The notes beneath the pieces are model-generated. The model was not told where the DNA came from, did not search any database, and saw only the letters and a list, made by a program, of their open reading frames with translations. A stretch of DNA of 64,000 bases from Phycisphaerales bacterium (GTDB lineage: Bacteria; Planctomycetota; Phycisphaerae; Phycisphaerales; SM1A02), in assembly GCA_029260575.1 (NCBI GenBank), contig JAJDDB010000027.1:684501-748500 (forward strand). The letters run 5' to 3'. Positions 155-64,000 of the stretch are shown piece by piece. The translations under genes and the position numbers were made by a program. How positions within the stretch are numbered: position 1 is the first letter of the stretch; each line of letters starts with the position of its first letter.

Positions 155-1852
155 GTGACCACTACGCTGTTTGACTCCCACAAATCCACACTCGAAAACG
201 CGCTCAAAGCCATCCACGAACGCGCCTACTGGAGCGCATACCCAGAAATCCCCAGCGGCAAGATCTATGGCGAAACCGCGCGCGCTGATGGCGAAGCTGC
301 ATTCAAGAGCTACCTCAACAACACCTTCAAACTCGATCAACCCGCTGCCTCCGGAACAGTTGGCAGCGAAAAATCCCCCTTCGGCTTCGACCTCGGCATC
401 TCGTATCCGAAACCCGATATGAATGCGCTCATCAATGCAGCGAAGACCGCGCAGCAACAATGGAAAAAAGCGTCTATCGAAGACCGCACCGGAATCTGCC
501 TCGAGATTTTGCACCGGCTCAATCAGCGTAGTTTCGAGATGGCCTTTGCGATCATGCACACGACCGGCCAGGGATTCATGATGGCATTCCAAGCAGGCGG
601 GCCGCACGCACAGGATCGCGGGCTTGAAGCCGTTGCCTACAGCTATGCAGCAATGACGCAGGCACCGCATCAGACGACATGGACCAAGCGCGTCTCCAAA
701 GATGATTCGGTCACGCTCAACAAGACCTTCCACATCGTTCCCCGTGGGCTCGGCATCGTCATCGGTTGTTCAACGTTCCCCACGTGGAACAGCTACCCCG
801 GCCTCTTTGCATCGCTTGCCACTGGCAACGCAGTCATCGTGAAACCTCATCCCGGCGCAATCCTGCCGCTGGCCATCACCGTGCAGATCGCTCGTGATGT
901 ACTAAAGGAACAGGGCTTTGACTCCAACGTCATCACGCTTGCAGCAGATGCCGCCGACGCTCCGATTACCAAGAAACTCGTCACCAACCCAGCCGTCGGC
1001 ATCATCGATTACACAGGCGGCAACGCCTTCGGCAACTGGATCGAAGACAATGCCAGACACGCATCAGTCTTCACCGAAAAGGCCGGCGTCAATCCGGCGG
1101 TCATCCACTCAACCGACAACCTCCGCGCAATGACCGGCAACCTTGCGTTCAGTCTCTCGCTGTACTCCGGGCAGATGTGTACCACCACACAAAACATCTT
1201 CATCCCATCCGCCGGCATCGAAACCGACAAAGGGCACCTGAGCTTCGATGATGCAGCAGGTGCAATCGTCAAAGCCCTCGACTGGCTGCTCGGCGATCCC
1301 AAACGCGGCGCAGAAATTCTCGGCGCGATTCAAAACCAGAGCACAGCCGATCGTATTGATGCAGTAAAGAAAGACGGCGGCGATGTATTGCGCGAATCCA
1401 CGCCGGTCGAGAACGAATACTTCCCCGATGCACGAGTCTGTTCGCCGATGGTGCTCAGAGTCAAAGCAGGCGATGAGAAACTGTATATGCGCGAAACGTT
1501 CGGCCCGATCGTGTACATGATTGAAACCAAAGACACCAACGAAGCCATCGAACTTGCCGCCCGCTGCGCACGGGAACAAGGCGCGCTCACTGCAGCGGTA
1601 TATTCCACTGACAGCAATGTACTTGCCAAGGCTGAAGATGCGCTTATCGAAGCCGGCGTACCCGTCAGTTGTAATCTCACCGGGCAGATTTACGTGAACC
1701 AGTCCGCCGCCTTCAGCGACTACCACGTCAGCGGCGCAAACCCCGCAGGCAACGCAACACTCTGCGATCTGGCGTATGTCGTCCCGCGCTTCCGCTTCGT
1801 GCAAAGCCGAGTGCCCGTACCGGCCGCAACACCCGCAGCTGCAAACGCCTGA
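155..1852 (+). CDS. paaN: Phenylacetate-degradation aldehyde dehydrogenase PaaN
   Basis: This 565-residue protein belongs to the PaaN branch of the aldehyde dehydrogenase superfamily, which oxidises the semialdehyde formed after ring opening in the aerobic phenylacetyl-CoA pathway. The nucleophile motif YSGQMCTTTQN carries the expected cysteine, and FTEKAGVNPAV the upstream glutamate. No MaoC hydratase domain follows, so it is PaaN rather than bifunctional PaaZ. The frame is open to the window edge, but I place the start at GTG 155: a GAGG lies 8 bases upstream and the protein then begins like its family (LFDSHKSTLENAL). paaY follows 140 bases downstream on the same strand. Confidence 0.88.
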   Translation: MTTTLFDSHKSTLENALKAIHERAYWSAYPEIPSGKIYGETARADGEAAFKSYLNNTFKLDQPAASGTVGSEKSPFGFDLGISYPKPDMNALINAAKTAQQQWKKASIEDRTGICLEILHRLNQRSFEMAFAIMHTTGQGFMMAFQAGGPHAQDRGLEAVAYSYAAMTQAPHQTTWTKRVSKDDSVTLNKTFHIVPRGLGIVIGCSTFPTWNSYPGLFASLATGNAVIVKPHPGAILPLAITVQIARDVLKEQGFDSNVITLAADAADAPITKKLVTNPAVGIIDYTGGNAFGNWIEDNARHASVFTEKAGVNPAVIHSTDNLRAMTGNLAFSLSLYSGQMCTTTQNIFIPSAGIETDKGHLSFDDAAGAIVKALDWLLGDPKRGAEILGAIQNQSTADRIDAVKKDGGDVLRESTPVENEYFPDARVCSPMVLRVKAGDEKLYMRETFGPIVYMIETKDTNEAIELAARCAREQGALTAAVYSTDSNVLAKAEDALIEAGVPVSCNLTGQIYVNQSAAFSDYHVSGANPAGNATLCDLAYVVPRFRFVQSRVPVPAATPAAANA

Positions 1853-13923: not shown

Positions 13924-13989
13924 ATTTCTACCTCCGAGGATTCGGCGATTCAAAGCGCCGATCCCAGTCAACCCCCGGGCATATAAAGC

Positions 13990-14062
13990 GCCCCGGCCAG
14001 GATTCGAACCTGGGACCTGCGGTTTAGAAGACCGCTGCTCTATCCAACTGAGCTACCGGGGC
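13990..14062 (-). tRNA. tRNA-Arg (anticodon TCT)
   Basis: On the minus strand the 73 bases fold as a standard cloverleaf. The acceptor stem is GCCCCGG/CCGGGGC, the D-stem GCTC/GAGC, the anticodon stem GCGGT/ACCGC with loop CTTCTAA, and the T-arm CCAGG TTCGAAT CCTGG. The anticodon TCT reads AGA/AGG arginine codons. CCA is not encoded. Confidence 0.97.
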
Positions 14063-61094: not shown

Positions 61095-62684
61095 TCAGAA
61101 GCCGACCGCCTGACCGTCACGGCGCAGGTCACTTGCCCCGCAATACGTACCGTTCATTTTGTAAATCGCCTGCGCGCCGCCGTACTTCACCCACTGCTTA
61201 TCTTCGACGTGCAGATCGTGGCCGAGCCCGCGCAATTCGTCATAGACCTCTGATTTGAATCCCGGCTCGATCCCGACATTCATACCCTTGAACACCTGCC
61301 AGCGGGGTGCATCCAGTGCTGCTTGCGGGTTCTGGTTGTAATCGGTCATGCGAATAATGACCTGCGTGTGCCCTTGCGGTTGCATGTATCCGCCCATGAC
61401 GCCAAATGCCATCTGCGGCTCGCCGTCGTGCGTCACCATGCCCGGAATGATCGTGTGATACGGCAGTTTGCCGCCATCAACCTGATTGGGATGACCATCT
61501 TCAGTGACAAAGCACGCGCCGCGGCTTTGCAGCGCAATGCCGGTGTCCGGCACGACAATGCCGGACCCGAAGCCGGTGTAGTTGGATTGGATCATTGAGA
61601 TCATGTTGCCGGCTGCGTCGGCTGCGCACAGCAGCACTGTTCCGCCGGGCTTCGGCGCACCATGCTTGAAATCCTGCGCACGCGCGGGATCTATCAGCGC
61701 AGCACGATCCTTGAGATACGCATCATCGAGCAGATCCTGCACGCGGAGATCCATGTGCATCGGATCTGCGATATAGCGGTCCGCATCACGAAATGCGAGT
61801 TTCATCGCTTCAATCTGCAGGTGCAGACTCGCGGCGCTGTCCGCCGGGCGGCTTGCTATATCCAGATGCCGGGCGATACCAAGCGCGATGAGTGCTGTTA
61901 GTCCCTGACCATTGGGGGGAATCTCATGGAGCGTCGCGCCGTTGTAGGTCGTTTCAATCGGCCGCACCCACGCCGGGCGATGCGCTGCCAGATCGTCTTC
62001 CGTGAGATACCCGCCGGTGTTGTCTGAATGTGCAACGATTTTGCGCGCGAGTTCACCTTCATAAAACGCAGTGCCTTTCGTTGCTGCGATCAATTCAAGC
62101 GTGCGCGCATGCGCTTCACTCGTGAAGACTTCGCCGGTCCTGGGCCCTCTGCCGTTCGGACAGAACGTCTGCTGGAACGAATCAAGATCCTTGTACGCAC
62201 GACACCCACGATCCCAGTAGTACGCAGTCTGCGGCGCGACGCCAAATCCATTGCGGGCGTAGTGAATCGCTGGCTCGAAGAGTTTTTCGAACGGTAACGC
62301 CCCGAATTGCTCTGAAAGCGCAACCCAACCGGACACCGCGCCGGGAACAGTCACACTCTGCCAGCCTTGCGGCGAAATTGATTCCTGATCAGCAAACATT
62401 GACGGGCTGAGTTTCTTTGGCGACCTGCCAGAAGCGTTGAGGCCGTGCATTCCCCCGCCGGCCCAGATCAACGCAAATGCATCGGCCCCGATACCGTTGC
62501 TCGTCGGTTCGATGACCGTCAGCGTGATTGCGGTCGCAACAGCAGCGTCAATGGCGTTGCCGCCCGTCCGCAACATCAACAAGCCGGCCTGGGCGGCCAG
62601 TGGCTGGCTCGTGGCGACGACATTCGGCGCAAACACCGGCATGCGCTGCGACGAGTACGGGAACGACCAGTCGAATTCAGCCAT
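61095..62684 (-). CDS. Gamma-glutamyltransferase-family protein
   Basis: The 529-residue Ntn-hydrolase precursor should cut itself before the threonine in PKPGGTVLLCAADAAGNMIS to form two chains. Family marks are NAIDAAVATAITLTVIEPTS, GADAFALIWAGG, the SNYTGFGSGIVVPDTGI region and GVMGGYMQPQGHTQVI. No signal peptide is seen, so it is of the cytoplasmic YwrD-like kind, whose substrate may not be glutathione. ATG 62684 fits the family start. A strong terminator hairpin lies 57 bases upstream, so ggt either has its own promoter there or is attenuated. Confidence 0.9.
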   Translation of the reverse strand: MAEFDWSFPYSSQRMPVFAPNVVATSQPLAAQAGLLMLRTGGNAIDAAVATAITLTVIEPTSNGIGADAFALIWAGGGMHGLNASGRSPKKLSPSMFADQESISPQGWQSVTVPGAVSGWVALSEQFGALPFEKLFEPAIHYARNGFGVAPQTAYYWDRGCRAYKDLDSFQQTFCPNGRGPRTGEVFTSEAHARTLELIAATKGTAFYEGELARKIVAHSDNTGGYLTEDDLAAHRPAWVRPIETTYNGATLHEIPPNGQGLTALIALGIARHLDIASRPADSAASLHLQIEAMKLAFRDADRYIADPMHMDLRVQDLLDDAYLKDRAALIDPARAQDFKHGAPKPGGTVLLCAADAAGNMISMIQSNYTGFGSGIVVPDTGIALQSRGACFVTEDGHPNQVDGGKLPYHTIIPGMVTHDGEPQMAFGVMGGYMQPQGHTQVIIRMTDYNQNPQAALDAPRWQVFKGMNVGIEPGFKSEVYDELRGLGHDLHVEDKQWVKYGGAQAIYKMNGTYCGASDLRRDGQAVGF

Positions 62685-62740
62685 CTCTATAGTGTACCGG
62701 CCGGGAAGCGCATGGATGAAAACAGCCCGGCAGCTCACGC

Positions 62741-62780
62741 AAAAAAGACCAAGAGCCCTCGCTTTCACGAAGGCTCTTGG
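62741..62780 (-). terminator. Strong intrinsic terminator upstream of ggt
   Basis: On the minus strand CCAAGAGCC (62780-62772) pairs with GGCTCTTGG (62757-62749) around a 14-base loop, then TCTTTTTT. It ends the structured RNA region upstream of it on the minus strand, not a protein gene that I can support. Confidence 0.85.
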
Positions 62781-63220
62781 CTGTCAGCCCAAGATTCGGG
62801 TCATGCAACCCACAGCTCTGTCGAACGGTGAAGACGCATGACCTTCACCTTGGTTCTGACTGACAGCTTGAAGATGTCCGGCGCGCTCTTCAAACCGTCG
62901 CACGGGCTGAACACATGTTTCCACGTCCTCAGCCCGTTTTCGACATGGTGTTCCGCCAGGTGAATGACCTTCCCACCATGTCCTCCGTTGCTCGATATGG
63001 CTTTCGCCTGTTTCGAACATCGAAGTTGTGCTTCTGCGCCCCGGCACCTGCCTTCGTCCACCAAAGTTCGGCCGAAGCCTCCCGTTGGTTTCATCCTCCA
63101 GCACGTGTTATTCCGACACACTTCCGCACCGGGCCTTTTCCTTTCAGTCCGGCCCCCGAGCTTGCGCCCGGTGGTTGTCCAAGTCAGTGCCGCGATGCCT
63201 CCAGATTCCTGTTACCAGTT
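62741..63220 (-). ncRNA. Candidate large structured non-coding RNA
   Basis: On the minus strand this region folds into many helices. Perfect ones are 62942-62950/62974-62982 (GACATGGTG/CACCATGTC), 62902-62910/62929-62937 (ACGGGCTGA/TCAGCCCGT, with an inner ACGTG-GAAA-CATGT hairpin), 62827-62833/62843-62849, 62780-62787/62860-62867, and 63060-63064/63085-63089 around GGC-TTCG-GCC. Tetraloops include GCAA (63062-63065 region is not it; the GCAA loop is 63162-63165), GTAA (63212-63215) and GAAA (62918-62921). Two G-U pairs fit only the minus strand. An intrinsic terminator ends it. I see no RNase P, tmRNA, SRP or 6S signature. The 5' end is unsure; a weak 100-residue reading frame overlaps. Confidence 0.7.
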
Positions 63221-63479
63221 CACCTTCATTGACATAAACGAGGTTGACTTATCAACCGAGAGACACAATACGGCGCTGCGCGCACACAGCAAGAGTGCAC
63301 CTGAATTGTGGACAGTTGGTGAGAAAGCTGTAGTGCTCAGCAGGTTGCGCTGCGCGTAAATGCAGATCAATACAAAACAACCGTGCGCGCGATGCGCGTC
63401 ATCACGCTCGGTGGAAATCGCAACAGCATCGCAATTTTTTCAGAAAATTCTTGTTGAACGCACCCGAACAACGCGATGT
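63221..63479. other. Gene-free stretch between the structured RNA and mnmA
   Basis: No gene is supported. It contains a perfect inverted repeat GGTTGA-CTTA-TCAACC at 63243-63258, just upstream of the candidate RNA (on the minus strand), which could be part of its promoter or an operator. The rest, rich in GCGC, shows nothing I can name. Confidence 0.4.
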
Positions 63480-64000
63480 TCAAACGGCTGAATCAATCCA
63501 CCCGCCGACCATTACAGCATCACCCTGATAGCACACCACGGCCTGACCAGGCGCGACAGCGAATTGCGGTTCATCAAAGCGCACTTCTATCGCGTCAACA
63601 CCACTGCAGCGCACGCGCGCGGGAACAGGCTCCGCGTTGTATCGAATCTGCGCGGCGCACTGCATCCAGTCGTCTGAACAGCACTCGTGCATCAACCAGC
63701 GAACCTGCGATGCGGCGCAACCGTCTGCGTAGAGATCCCGTTTCGCGCCGACCGTGATTGTGTTCGTGTCGGAATTCTTGTTCAGCACATACAGCGGGTG
63801 ACTGCGTGCGATGCCGATCCCGCGGCGCTGTCCCACCGTGAAATGCTGATGCCCCTCATGTTCGCCAATGACGTCGCCGTGTGAATTCACAATCGCGCCG
63901 CGCGACACAACCTCCGGCGTTCGGCGTCGCACAACTCCGGCATAGTCATTGTCAGGAACAAAGCAGATTTCCTGCGAATCCGGCTTGTTGAATACGGGTA
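63480..64000 (-). CDS. mnmA: tRNA-specific 2-thiouridylase MnmA (C-terminal part)
   Basis: Only the last 173 residues are inside the window; the gene runs past its right edge. They include NKPDSQEICFVPDNDYAGVV with the second catalytic cysteine, GHQHFTVGQRRGIGIARSHP, PLYVLNKNSDTNTITVGAK and the end QFAVAPGQAVVCYQGDAVMV GGWI-type barrel. MnmA puts sulfur on the wobble uridine of tRNAs for Lys, Glu and Gln. Frame and motifs match over the whole visible part, with no break. Confidence 0.95.
   Translation of the reverse strand, partial: PVFNKPDSQEICFVPDNDYAGVVRRRTPEVVSRGAIVNSHGDVIGEHEGHQHFTVGQRRGIGIARSHPLYVLNKNSDTNTITVGAKRDLYADGCAASQVRWLMHECCSDDWMQCAAQIRYNAEPVPARVRCSGVDAIEVRFDEPQFAVAPGQAVVCYQGDAVMVGGWIDSAV

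Follow-up and report, generated by a model that had tools for sequence, protein, structure and literature searches.

What is encoded on the minus strand between mnmA and ggt in this Phycisphaerales genome? An initial annotation of the window (the whole stretch of 64,000 nucleotides that was analysed) had placed a large, undescribed structured RNA here. At the level of sequence, our analysis shows that the locus is non-coding and that its multi-domain fold covaries, with an upstream region of its own that is conserved and an intrinsic terminator at the 3' end. It is likely the gene of a new family of structured, trans-acting non-coding RNAs of about 0.5 kb, and at a best guess the core of a complex, a reading made without expression data. 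The inferred transcript comprises 518 nt of the minus strand, running from 63258, where it is inferred to start, to the last base of a T run at 62741. The features of the locus are, in the order of transcription:

63480 to 64000, minus strand: 3' end of mnmA, the upstream neighbour, which runs off the window (Pfam PF20258 and PF20259)
63306 to 63321, minus strand: conserved element CACC-N6-YCACAA (in the window CACCAACTGTCCACAA), 13 bases before the -35-like box, found by comparing homologues
63265 to 63292, minus strand: promoter-like boxes TTGCTG-16-TATTGT (63292-63287 and 63270-63265), picked by eye and supported by homologues, without transcript data
62741 to 63258, minus strand: large structured non-coding RNA, supported by its fold (z = -10.2 for the 518-nt form), ten copies, covariation and non-coding status; start inferred
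62741 to 62781, minus strand: intrinsic terminator H16, with 9 of 14 consensus pairs changed on both sides
61095 to 62684, minus strand: ggt, the downstream neighbour, 56 bases past the T run (Pfam PF01019, 505 bits)

The minus strand at 62738-63230 folds at -231.7 kcal/mol (z = -9.48), compared with z = -3.15 for the plus strand of the same segment. As none of 100 shuffles folded as well on either strand, chance can be excluded. The centroid and the minimum-energy fold lie only 3 kcal/mol apart, and the mean pair probability was 0.97 in the large 3' main domain and 0.86-1.00 in three 5' domains. The structural claims of the initial annotation largely held. The minus-strand helices are present, including the 9 bp described at 62942/62974 (62982-62974 with 62950-62942, 9 pairs) and those at 62902/62929, where the helix in fact has 10 pairs (62937-62928 with 62911-62902) plus an inner 5. 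The GNRA and C(UUCG)G loops can be read in the window, although by eye only some homologues retain them, and the strong terminator reported at 62741-62780 was confirmed as a stem of 15 pairs at 62781-62748, 8 of them G-C, followed by six T down to 62741. The proposed extent to 63220 held only in part: the RNA probably begins some 40 bases further upstream, and a start near 63258, behind the promoter-like boxes, lets the 5' domain close on itself. The first hairpin (63242-63257), followed by TCGTTTATGT, resembles a terminator, and early termination is possible; the T run is not kept in the homologues inspected.

Full-length copies of the RNA were identified in 10 of the 181 genomes of the family (the window's included) and in 7 of its 45 genera, spanning 493-567 nt between anchors chosen by eye at either end. 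Searching 151 genomes at the DNA level returned four real relatives besides the source genome; a fifth match (L007) was dismissed as chance, lying inside a long reading frame that by eye resembles a restriction enzyme subunit. Two covariance models were used, R1 for the 3' part of the RNA and R2 for the 3' module, the latter built from the ten copies. R1 gave E values of 3e-31 to 1e-29 in five genomes of genera g37 and g44 and of 5e-27 to 9e-9 in the remaining five copies. At E <= 0.1 it matched 39 of the 181 family genomes, and the 10 with E <= 9.1e-9 were kept; R2 matched 26 of 181 at E <= 0.05, with the same 10 at E <= 4.9e-13 and the next at 4.3e-4. Neither model found a clear copy in the other 171 family genomes, though many of these are incomplete.

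No further credible copy was found in samples of the class (397 genomes), order (400) or phylum (392). Matches were obtained in 6 genomes of the class sample at E <= 0.05 (two being known copies), in 18 of the order sample at E <= 0.01 (nine known) and in 14 of the phylum sample at E <= 0.02 (two known). All three samples share members with the family and were taken out of larger groups under stricter filters; most of their weak matches were not inspected singly. A scan of 84,980 species with an exact pattern yielded 13 stretches; R2 identified six as copies, all in Planctomycetota or Phycisphaerales metagenome-assembled genomes, and gave the other seven 24.6 bits at most or nothing. Of these seven non-copies, L083 falls within a frame of 922 codons and L084 looks coding by eye. 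In the samples searched, credible copies are confined to one GTDB family.

Several weak matches were discarded individually. By eye, L025-L028 (R1) look like terminators behind coding or tRNA genes and L054-L056, L170 and L171 look coding. L053 and L169 lie inside long frames; L024, another weak R1 match, is a shortened version of the locus. Among the weak loci checked, only L024 adjoins an mnmA fragment. Two species of one genus carry second weak R1 matches of equal length (G070:C81:122042-122185, 23.5 bits; G043:C9:5106-5249, 20.4 bits), which might represent a distant paralogue.

A consensus structure was derived from a MAFFT alignment of the ten full-length copies (A4), for which RNAalifold proposed 100 pairs; 99 were counted after one isolated pair had been dropped. 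Standard pairs filled 88.9% of the 973 cells, compared with 82.8% when the 3' letters were shuffled between sequences and 37-48% when the partners were slid by 1 to 3 columns. Both sides had changed in 47 pairs (23.4 +/- 3.4 in shuffles) and the covariation score was 0.378 (0.271 +/- 0.012 in shuffles); none of 500 shuffles reached the observed paired percentage, double-change count or covariation score. These controls have limits. Shuffling leaves relatedness in, so that related sequences may beat shuffles without any structure; the consensus came from the same alignment, and alignment-derived structures tend to beat slid versions; and only about seven sequences are independent at the genus level, five of the ten coming from two genera. 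Independently of the alignment, the sense strands of the ten copies folded with z values of -4.9 to -12.4 (40 shuffles each) and surpassed the antisense strand in every copy, narrowly in L023 (-7.83 vs -7.53). From 5' to 3' the RNA is built as follows:

63173 to 63257, minus strand: 5' domain, mean pair probability 0.91, closed by consensus helices H1 and H2
63256-63251 with 63178-63173 (H1, 85% of cells paired) and 63248-63246 with 63183-63181 (H2), minus strand: the two closing helices
63156 to 63171, minus strand: hairpin H3 with a GNRA loop (GCAA in the window), 95% of cells paired, pair probability 1.00
63131 to 63155, minus strand: hairpin H4, 89.4% of cells paired, 3 of 7 pairs double-changed, pair probability 0.86
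63028 to 63130, minus strand: central branched domain H5-H7, 80-90% of cells paired
62983 to 63025, minus strand: 12-pair stem-loop (5 plus 7) in the fold of the window's copy alone, outside the ten-sequence consensus
62942 to 62982, minus strand: helix H8/H9, 88.6% and 97.2% of cells paired
62902 to 62937, minus strand: helix H10/H11, 10 pairs plus an inner 5, with 4 of 7 consensus pairs double-changed
62862 to 62899, minus strand: helix H12, 13 pairs in the window, 6 of 8 consensus pairs double-changed, 80% of cells paired
62789 to 62853, minus strand: most conserved 3' module, with two overlapping pairings that each exceed slid controls

In H1, five of six pairs were changed on both sides; the consensus and the window-only fold use slightly different registers in the 5' domain. 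The consensus is least secure in the central domain, where the five-sequence and ten-sequence alignments propose different helices. In H8/H9 a purine-rich internal loop, GGGAA opposite GGCNGGA, is retained by eye in most copies. It is compatible with tandem G.A pairs and could conceivably be a site of protein or tertiary contact.

In the 3' module two pairings compete. State 1 consists of an outer helix (62853-62848 with 62794-62789; 96.7% of cells paired, 2 of 6 pairs double-changed), an inner helix (62843-62836 with 62806-62799; 91.3%, 3 of 8; both helices in alignment A3) and a small inner stem (76.9% of cells paired). For state 1 as a whole, 1 of 500 shuffles reached the paired percentage and 11 of 500 the double-change count. 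State 2 is a 9-pair hairpin, 62849-62841 with 62835-62827, in which 98.9% of cells are paired and 2 of 9 pairs double-changed (4 of 500 shuffles were as high); slid versions did not exceed 63.3%, and the count of pair types was no higher than in shuffles. The two states cannot fully coexist because both use 62849-62848 and 62843-62841, yet they could form a pseudoknot if the common pairs were given up. As both pairings are supported, either a pseudoknot or two alternating states seems likely. That the module is a pseudoknot or two-state switch is thus probable, but it is inferred from sequence alone and rests on small double-change counts.

The initial annotation had noted an overlapping reading frame of about 100 codons. 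Two minus-strand frames of 106 codons with GTG starts exist (62784-63104 and 62801-63121), and neither is conserved. When the window's minus-strand frames and two plus-strand frames were compared with 11 related RNAs by tblastn, the best match had an E value of 0.027 over 28 residues. In each homologue, 15-21 of the 16-24 gap runs relative to the window had lengths not divisible by three, and the copies differed in which open frame was longest. The reading frames are not conserved and the RNA is non-coding.

The conserved upstream element was present at the loci of all seven genera with spacing constant to within one base (one base more in L017, shifted by one base in L022). Downstream of it, boxes of the form TTGC or TTGG and TAnnnT, picked by eye and 16 bases apart, were recognised in all ten full-length loci. 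A generic sigma-70 promoter scan found nothing here, because the boxes are too far from the sigma-70 consensus. In eight of 12 genomes tested, the exact element combined with a TTG pattern gave a single match, at the RNA locus, and the reversed control of the element pattern matched once in the 12 genomes, in G087. The genomes without an exact match were G023 and G029, which are short-bodied, G178, with an extra spacer base, and G003, where the element is shifted by one base. A promoter shared with RNase P RNA, tmRNA or the window's tRNA-Arg was rejected, as the element is absent before those genes. The element contains (G)TCCACAA, similar to the 3' part of a DnaA box, whose consensus is TTATCCACA.

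In eight of the ten full-length copies mnmA lies upstream of the RNA. At one exception, L003, the contig ends, and the mnmA match of that genome is on another contig; at the other, L020, no mnmA fragment occurs within 1.5 kb. L020 belongs to G031 (CP070772.1, Phycisphaerales bin220), a single-contig genome with a completeness of 79 in which the RNA is present and no mnmA fragment was matched; the RNA is thus kept there in the absence of its usual neighbour. mnmA and the RNA are separated in G087 by about 900 bases and another frame. Within genus g37 (L108, L113 and L104) a frame that by eye encodes a prepilin-like or membrane protein follows mnmA, and in G087 it precedes the RNA.

Downstream, ggt follows the RNA in the window, L004 and L005 according to frames and Pfam, and in L017 on a weak basis (the ggt query was translated out of frame). 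In L022 a pyridine-nucleotide oxidoreductase precedes ggt. Elsewhere the neighbour is a convergent RecQ-type helicase (L021), a class II tRNA synthetase (L023), a frame without assigned identity (L006) or a convergent glycosyl transferase-like frame (L020). The RNA structure is retained while these genes change. Variable downstream genes, together with the RNA's own upstream region and terminator, make a cis-regulatory leader or UTR unlikely; the same features and the boxes point to an autonomous, trans-acting RNA.

Three genomes carry reduced versions of the locus. In G029 (L024, 1427-1586) and G023 (L095, 1147-1419, minus strand) the order mnmA, upstream element, terminator, ggt is retained, with only 160 and 273 nt, respectively, from the inferred start to the T run. 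The element is exact in L024, which lacks the TTG box, and relaxed in L095. Both short bodies fold better than shuffles (z = -6.1 for L024 and -5.5 for L095), and the 3' module was not found in either; they may be natural reduced versions or replaced bodies. A tree of MnmA groups the two short-bodied genera (82/92). G179 belongs to genus g44, which otherwise carries the RNA. It retains the element, the boxes and roughly the first 100 nt and lacks the remainder and the terminator, and the remnant (L147, about 290-475, minus strand, G179:C16) is joined directly to the last bases before ggt. GCAAGGG, seen by eye at both edges in relatives, suggests deletion at a short repeat; the junction could be a natural deletion or an assembly error. 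A relaxed pattern applied to two sets of 17 and 37 mnmA 3' flanks, 54 in all, without a clear adjacent model match recovered the element in G179 alone; duplicates had been dropped from this set, two flanks were shorter than 200 bases, and the pattern is incomplete, missing L024 as well. Short or deleted bodies in three genomes indicate that the RNA is dispensable in some lineages. The MnmA tree (28 rows) is weakly resolved: the RNA label needs three changes, and a single change in 6% of bootstrap trees, so a single origin of the RNA remains unproven. In this tree L104 (G065) was labelled RNA-bearing by presumption, as its contig ends before the RNA start; no RNA match was seen in genome G065.

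To place the RNA among known families, the whole window was searched with cmscan against Rfam 15 at gathering score; the only match was a tRNA at 13989-14062, with nothing at the RNA locus. No gathering-level match was found in nine homologous loci or in the shortened L024 either. Under permissive settings the best match at the locus was BjrC68 (18.2 bits, E 0.054), rejected as sub-threshold and mainly over the terminator hairpin, and no other match there had an E value under 0.9; a permissive Fungi_SRP match upstream of the RNA (E 0.97) was also rejected. The known large RNAs of the source genome were located elsewhere. RNase P RNA is the only RF00010 match (255.2 bits), tmRNA matches RF00023 with 144 bits (five weaker matches are also not at the locus), small SRP RNA matches RF00169 with 45 bits, each on another contig, and ARAGORN found no tmRNA in the window. 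The only match to RF00013 (6S), L160 (G000:C35:274334-274503, minus strand), is sub-threshold at 32.6 bits and might be the divergent 6S RNA of this lineage.

No description of the RNA was found in the literature searched, which left most subscription papers and bioRxiv outside its scope. Passages of PMC2864571 and PMC10632474 and the abstract and outline of PMC12286853 do not describe it, and the term ncRNA is absent from the main text of PMC10945688. PMC2864571 lists a Rhodopirellula-1 candidate from Proteobacteria and Planctomycetes without an Rfam number in its row; its sequence was not compared with the new RNA.

Taken against these results, the remaining claims of the initial annotation also fared well. 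A separate non-coding RNA gene is supported, since comparison of homologues gave the opposite of frame conservation, namely covarying helices. The statement that core sequences of RNase P, tmRNA, SRP and 6S RNA do not match here held, the covariance-model matches lying elsewhere in the genome. Its suggested novelty is supported by the lack of an Rfam 15 family match at the locus or its homologues, and the suggestion that it may be planctomycete-specific can be sharpened to one GTDB family, with copies in 7 of 45 genera plus three genomes with shortened or deleted versions.

It is an inference that the RNA has a transcript to itself and works in trans as a stable, structured molecule. It would be transcribed from about 63258 to the terminator at 62741, and our best guess is that it might form the core of a ribonucleoprotein or RNA-only complex, in the manner proposed for OLE RNA. 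The 3' module, which evolves slowly, would then be the likely functional centre, for partner binding or conformational change. No expression data are available, the copies come from metagenome-assembled genomes among others, and nothing indicates a partner protein or process. A bolder reading, no more than possible, sees an ornate RNA machine of one planctomycete family, working as an OLE-like ribonucleoprotein or an RNA-only complex, whose 3' module would toggle between the outer stem with inner helix and the 9-pair hairpin upon partner binding or assembly; related genera would have cut the RNA to half or a third, and one species would have deleted it.

The rival that survives best, although unlikely, is a trans-acting regulator that base-pairs with mRNAs, or a CsrB-type protein sponge, instead of a structural or catalytic RNA. 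Independent transcripts ending in a terminator are typical of base-pairing regulators and sponges, and sponges of the CsrB/CsrC type are autonomous, terminator-ended RNAs of a few hundred nt; the dispensability of the RNA would fit a regulator. The new RNA shares the terminator but lacks an array of GGA loops: GGA motifs showed no clear enrichment over dinucleotide shuffles, and no copy had more than one GGA hairpin loop, which argues against a CsrB-like array. Against a base-pairing regulator, what is conserved is paired structure along much of the RNA, not one single-stranded seed.

A cis element, that is a ggt leader or an mnmA 3' UTR, is very unlikely. In its favour, mnmA and ggt flank the RNA on its own strand in the window and in L004 and L005, and in G179 the upstream element was left directly ahead of ggt. 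Against it stand the strong 3' terminator, the conserved upstream region, the different downstream genes in L006, L020, L021, L022 and L023, and the distance from mnmA in G087 or its absence nearby in L020.

Less likely still is that the RNA is a very divergent version of RNase P, tmRNA, SRP or 6S RNA or of any other Rfam family. In size it comes close to RNase P RNA or tmRNA, and narrow lineages can hold divergent copies. However, RNase P RNA, tmRNA, SRP RNA and the sub-threshold 6S match all lie elsewhere in the genome, the best match at the locus is mostly terminator, and ten related loci gave nothing at gathering threshold. A small protein gene with incidental structure, suggested by the two GTG-start frames on the RNA strand, is all but excluded by the lack of a counterpart in tblastn, the frame-breaking gaps and the change of longest frame between copies.

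The preferred reading, a large structured RNA acting in trans, describes a new family by the standard of Rfam 15; as a general type, large ornate RNAs without a known function are not without precedent. RNase P RNA and tmRNA are likewise single-copy structured RNAs of similar size, both present elsewhere in the source genome. GOLLD and ROOL are large ornate bacterial RNAs that form RNA-only cages (PMC12286853). The new RNA is similarly large and ornate but has no Rfam match to either; the models of OLE, GOLLD and ROOL are, we take it, included in the Rfam copy used. GOLLD and ROOL occur on phages or other mobile elements. The new gene, in contrast, is chromosomal and mostly next to mnmA; no DNA match was found in 50,697 phage or 72,556 plasmid records, and one pattern match in viral_contigs scored 14.4 bits with R2. 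OLE RNA, a single large structured non-coding RNA of about 600 nt whose precise function is open (PMC9723947, PMC12286853), is comparable in length and complexity. It has been described mostly from Bacillota (PMC12054373), whereas the new RNA comes from Planctomycetota, has no covariance-model match to OLE and has no recognised partner-protein gene beside it. Bacterial RNAs of such size and complexity are few. Among them, those with an established role, namely rRNA, RNase P RNA and tmRNA, are central machines, and the roles of OLE, ROOL and GOLLD are open; an unrelated large RNA with a defined gene, an upstream element, a terminator, a fold backed by covariation and shortened or deleted natural variants provides an independent case for studying what large RNAs do.
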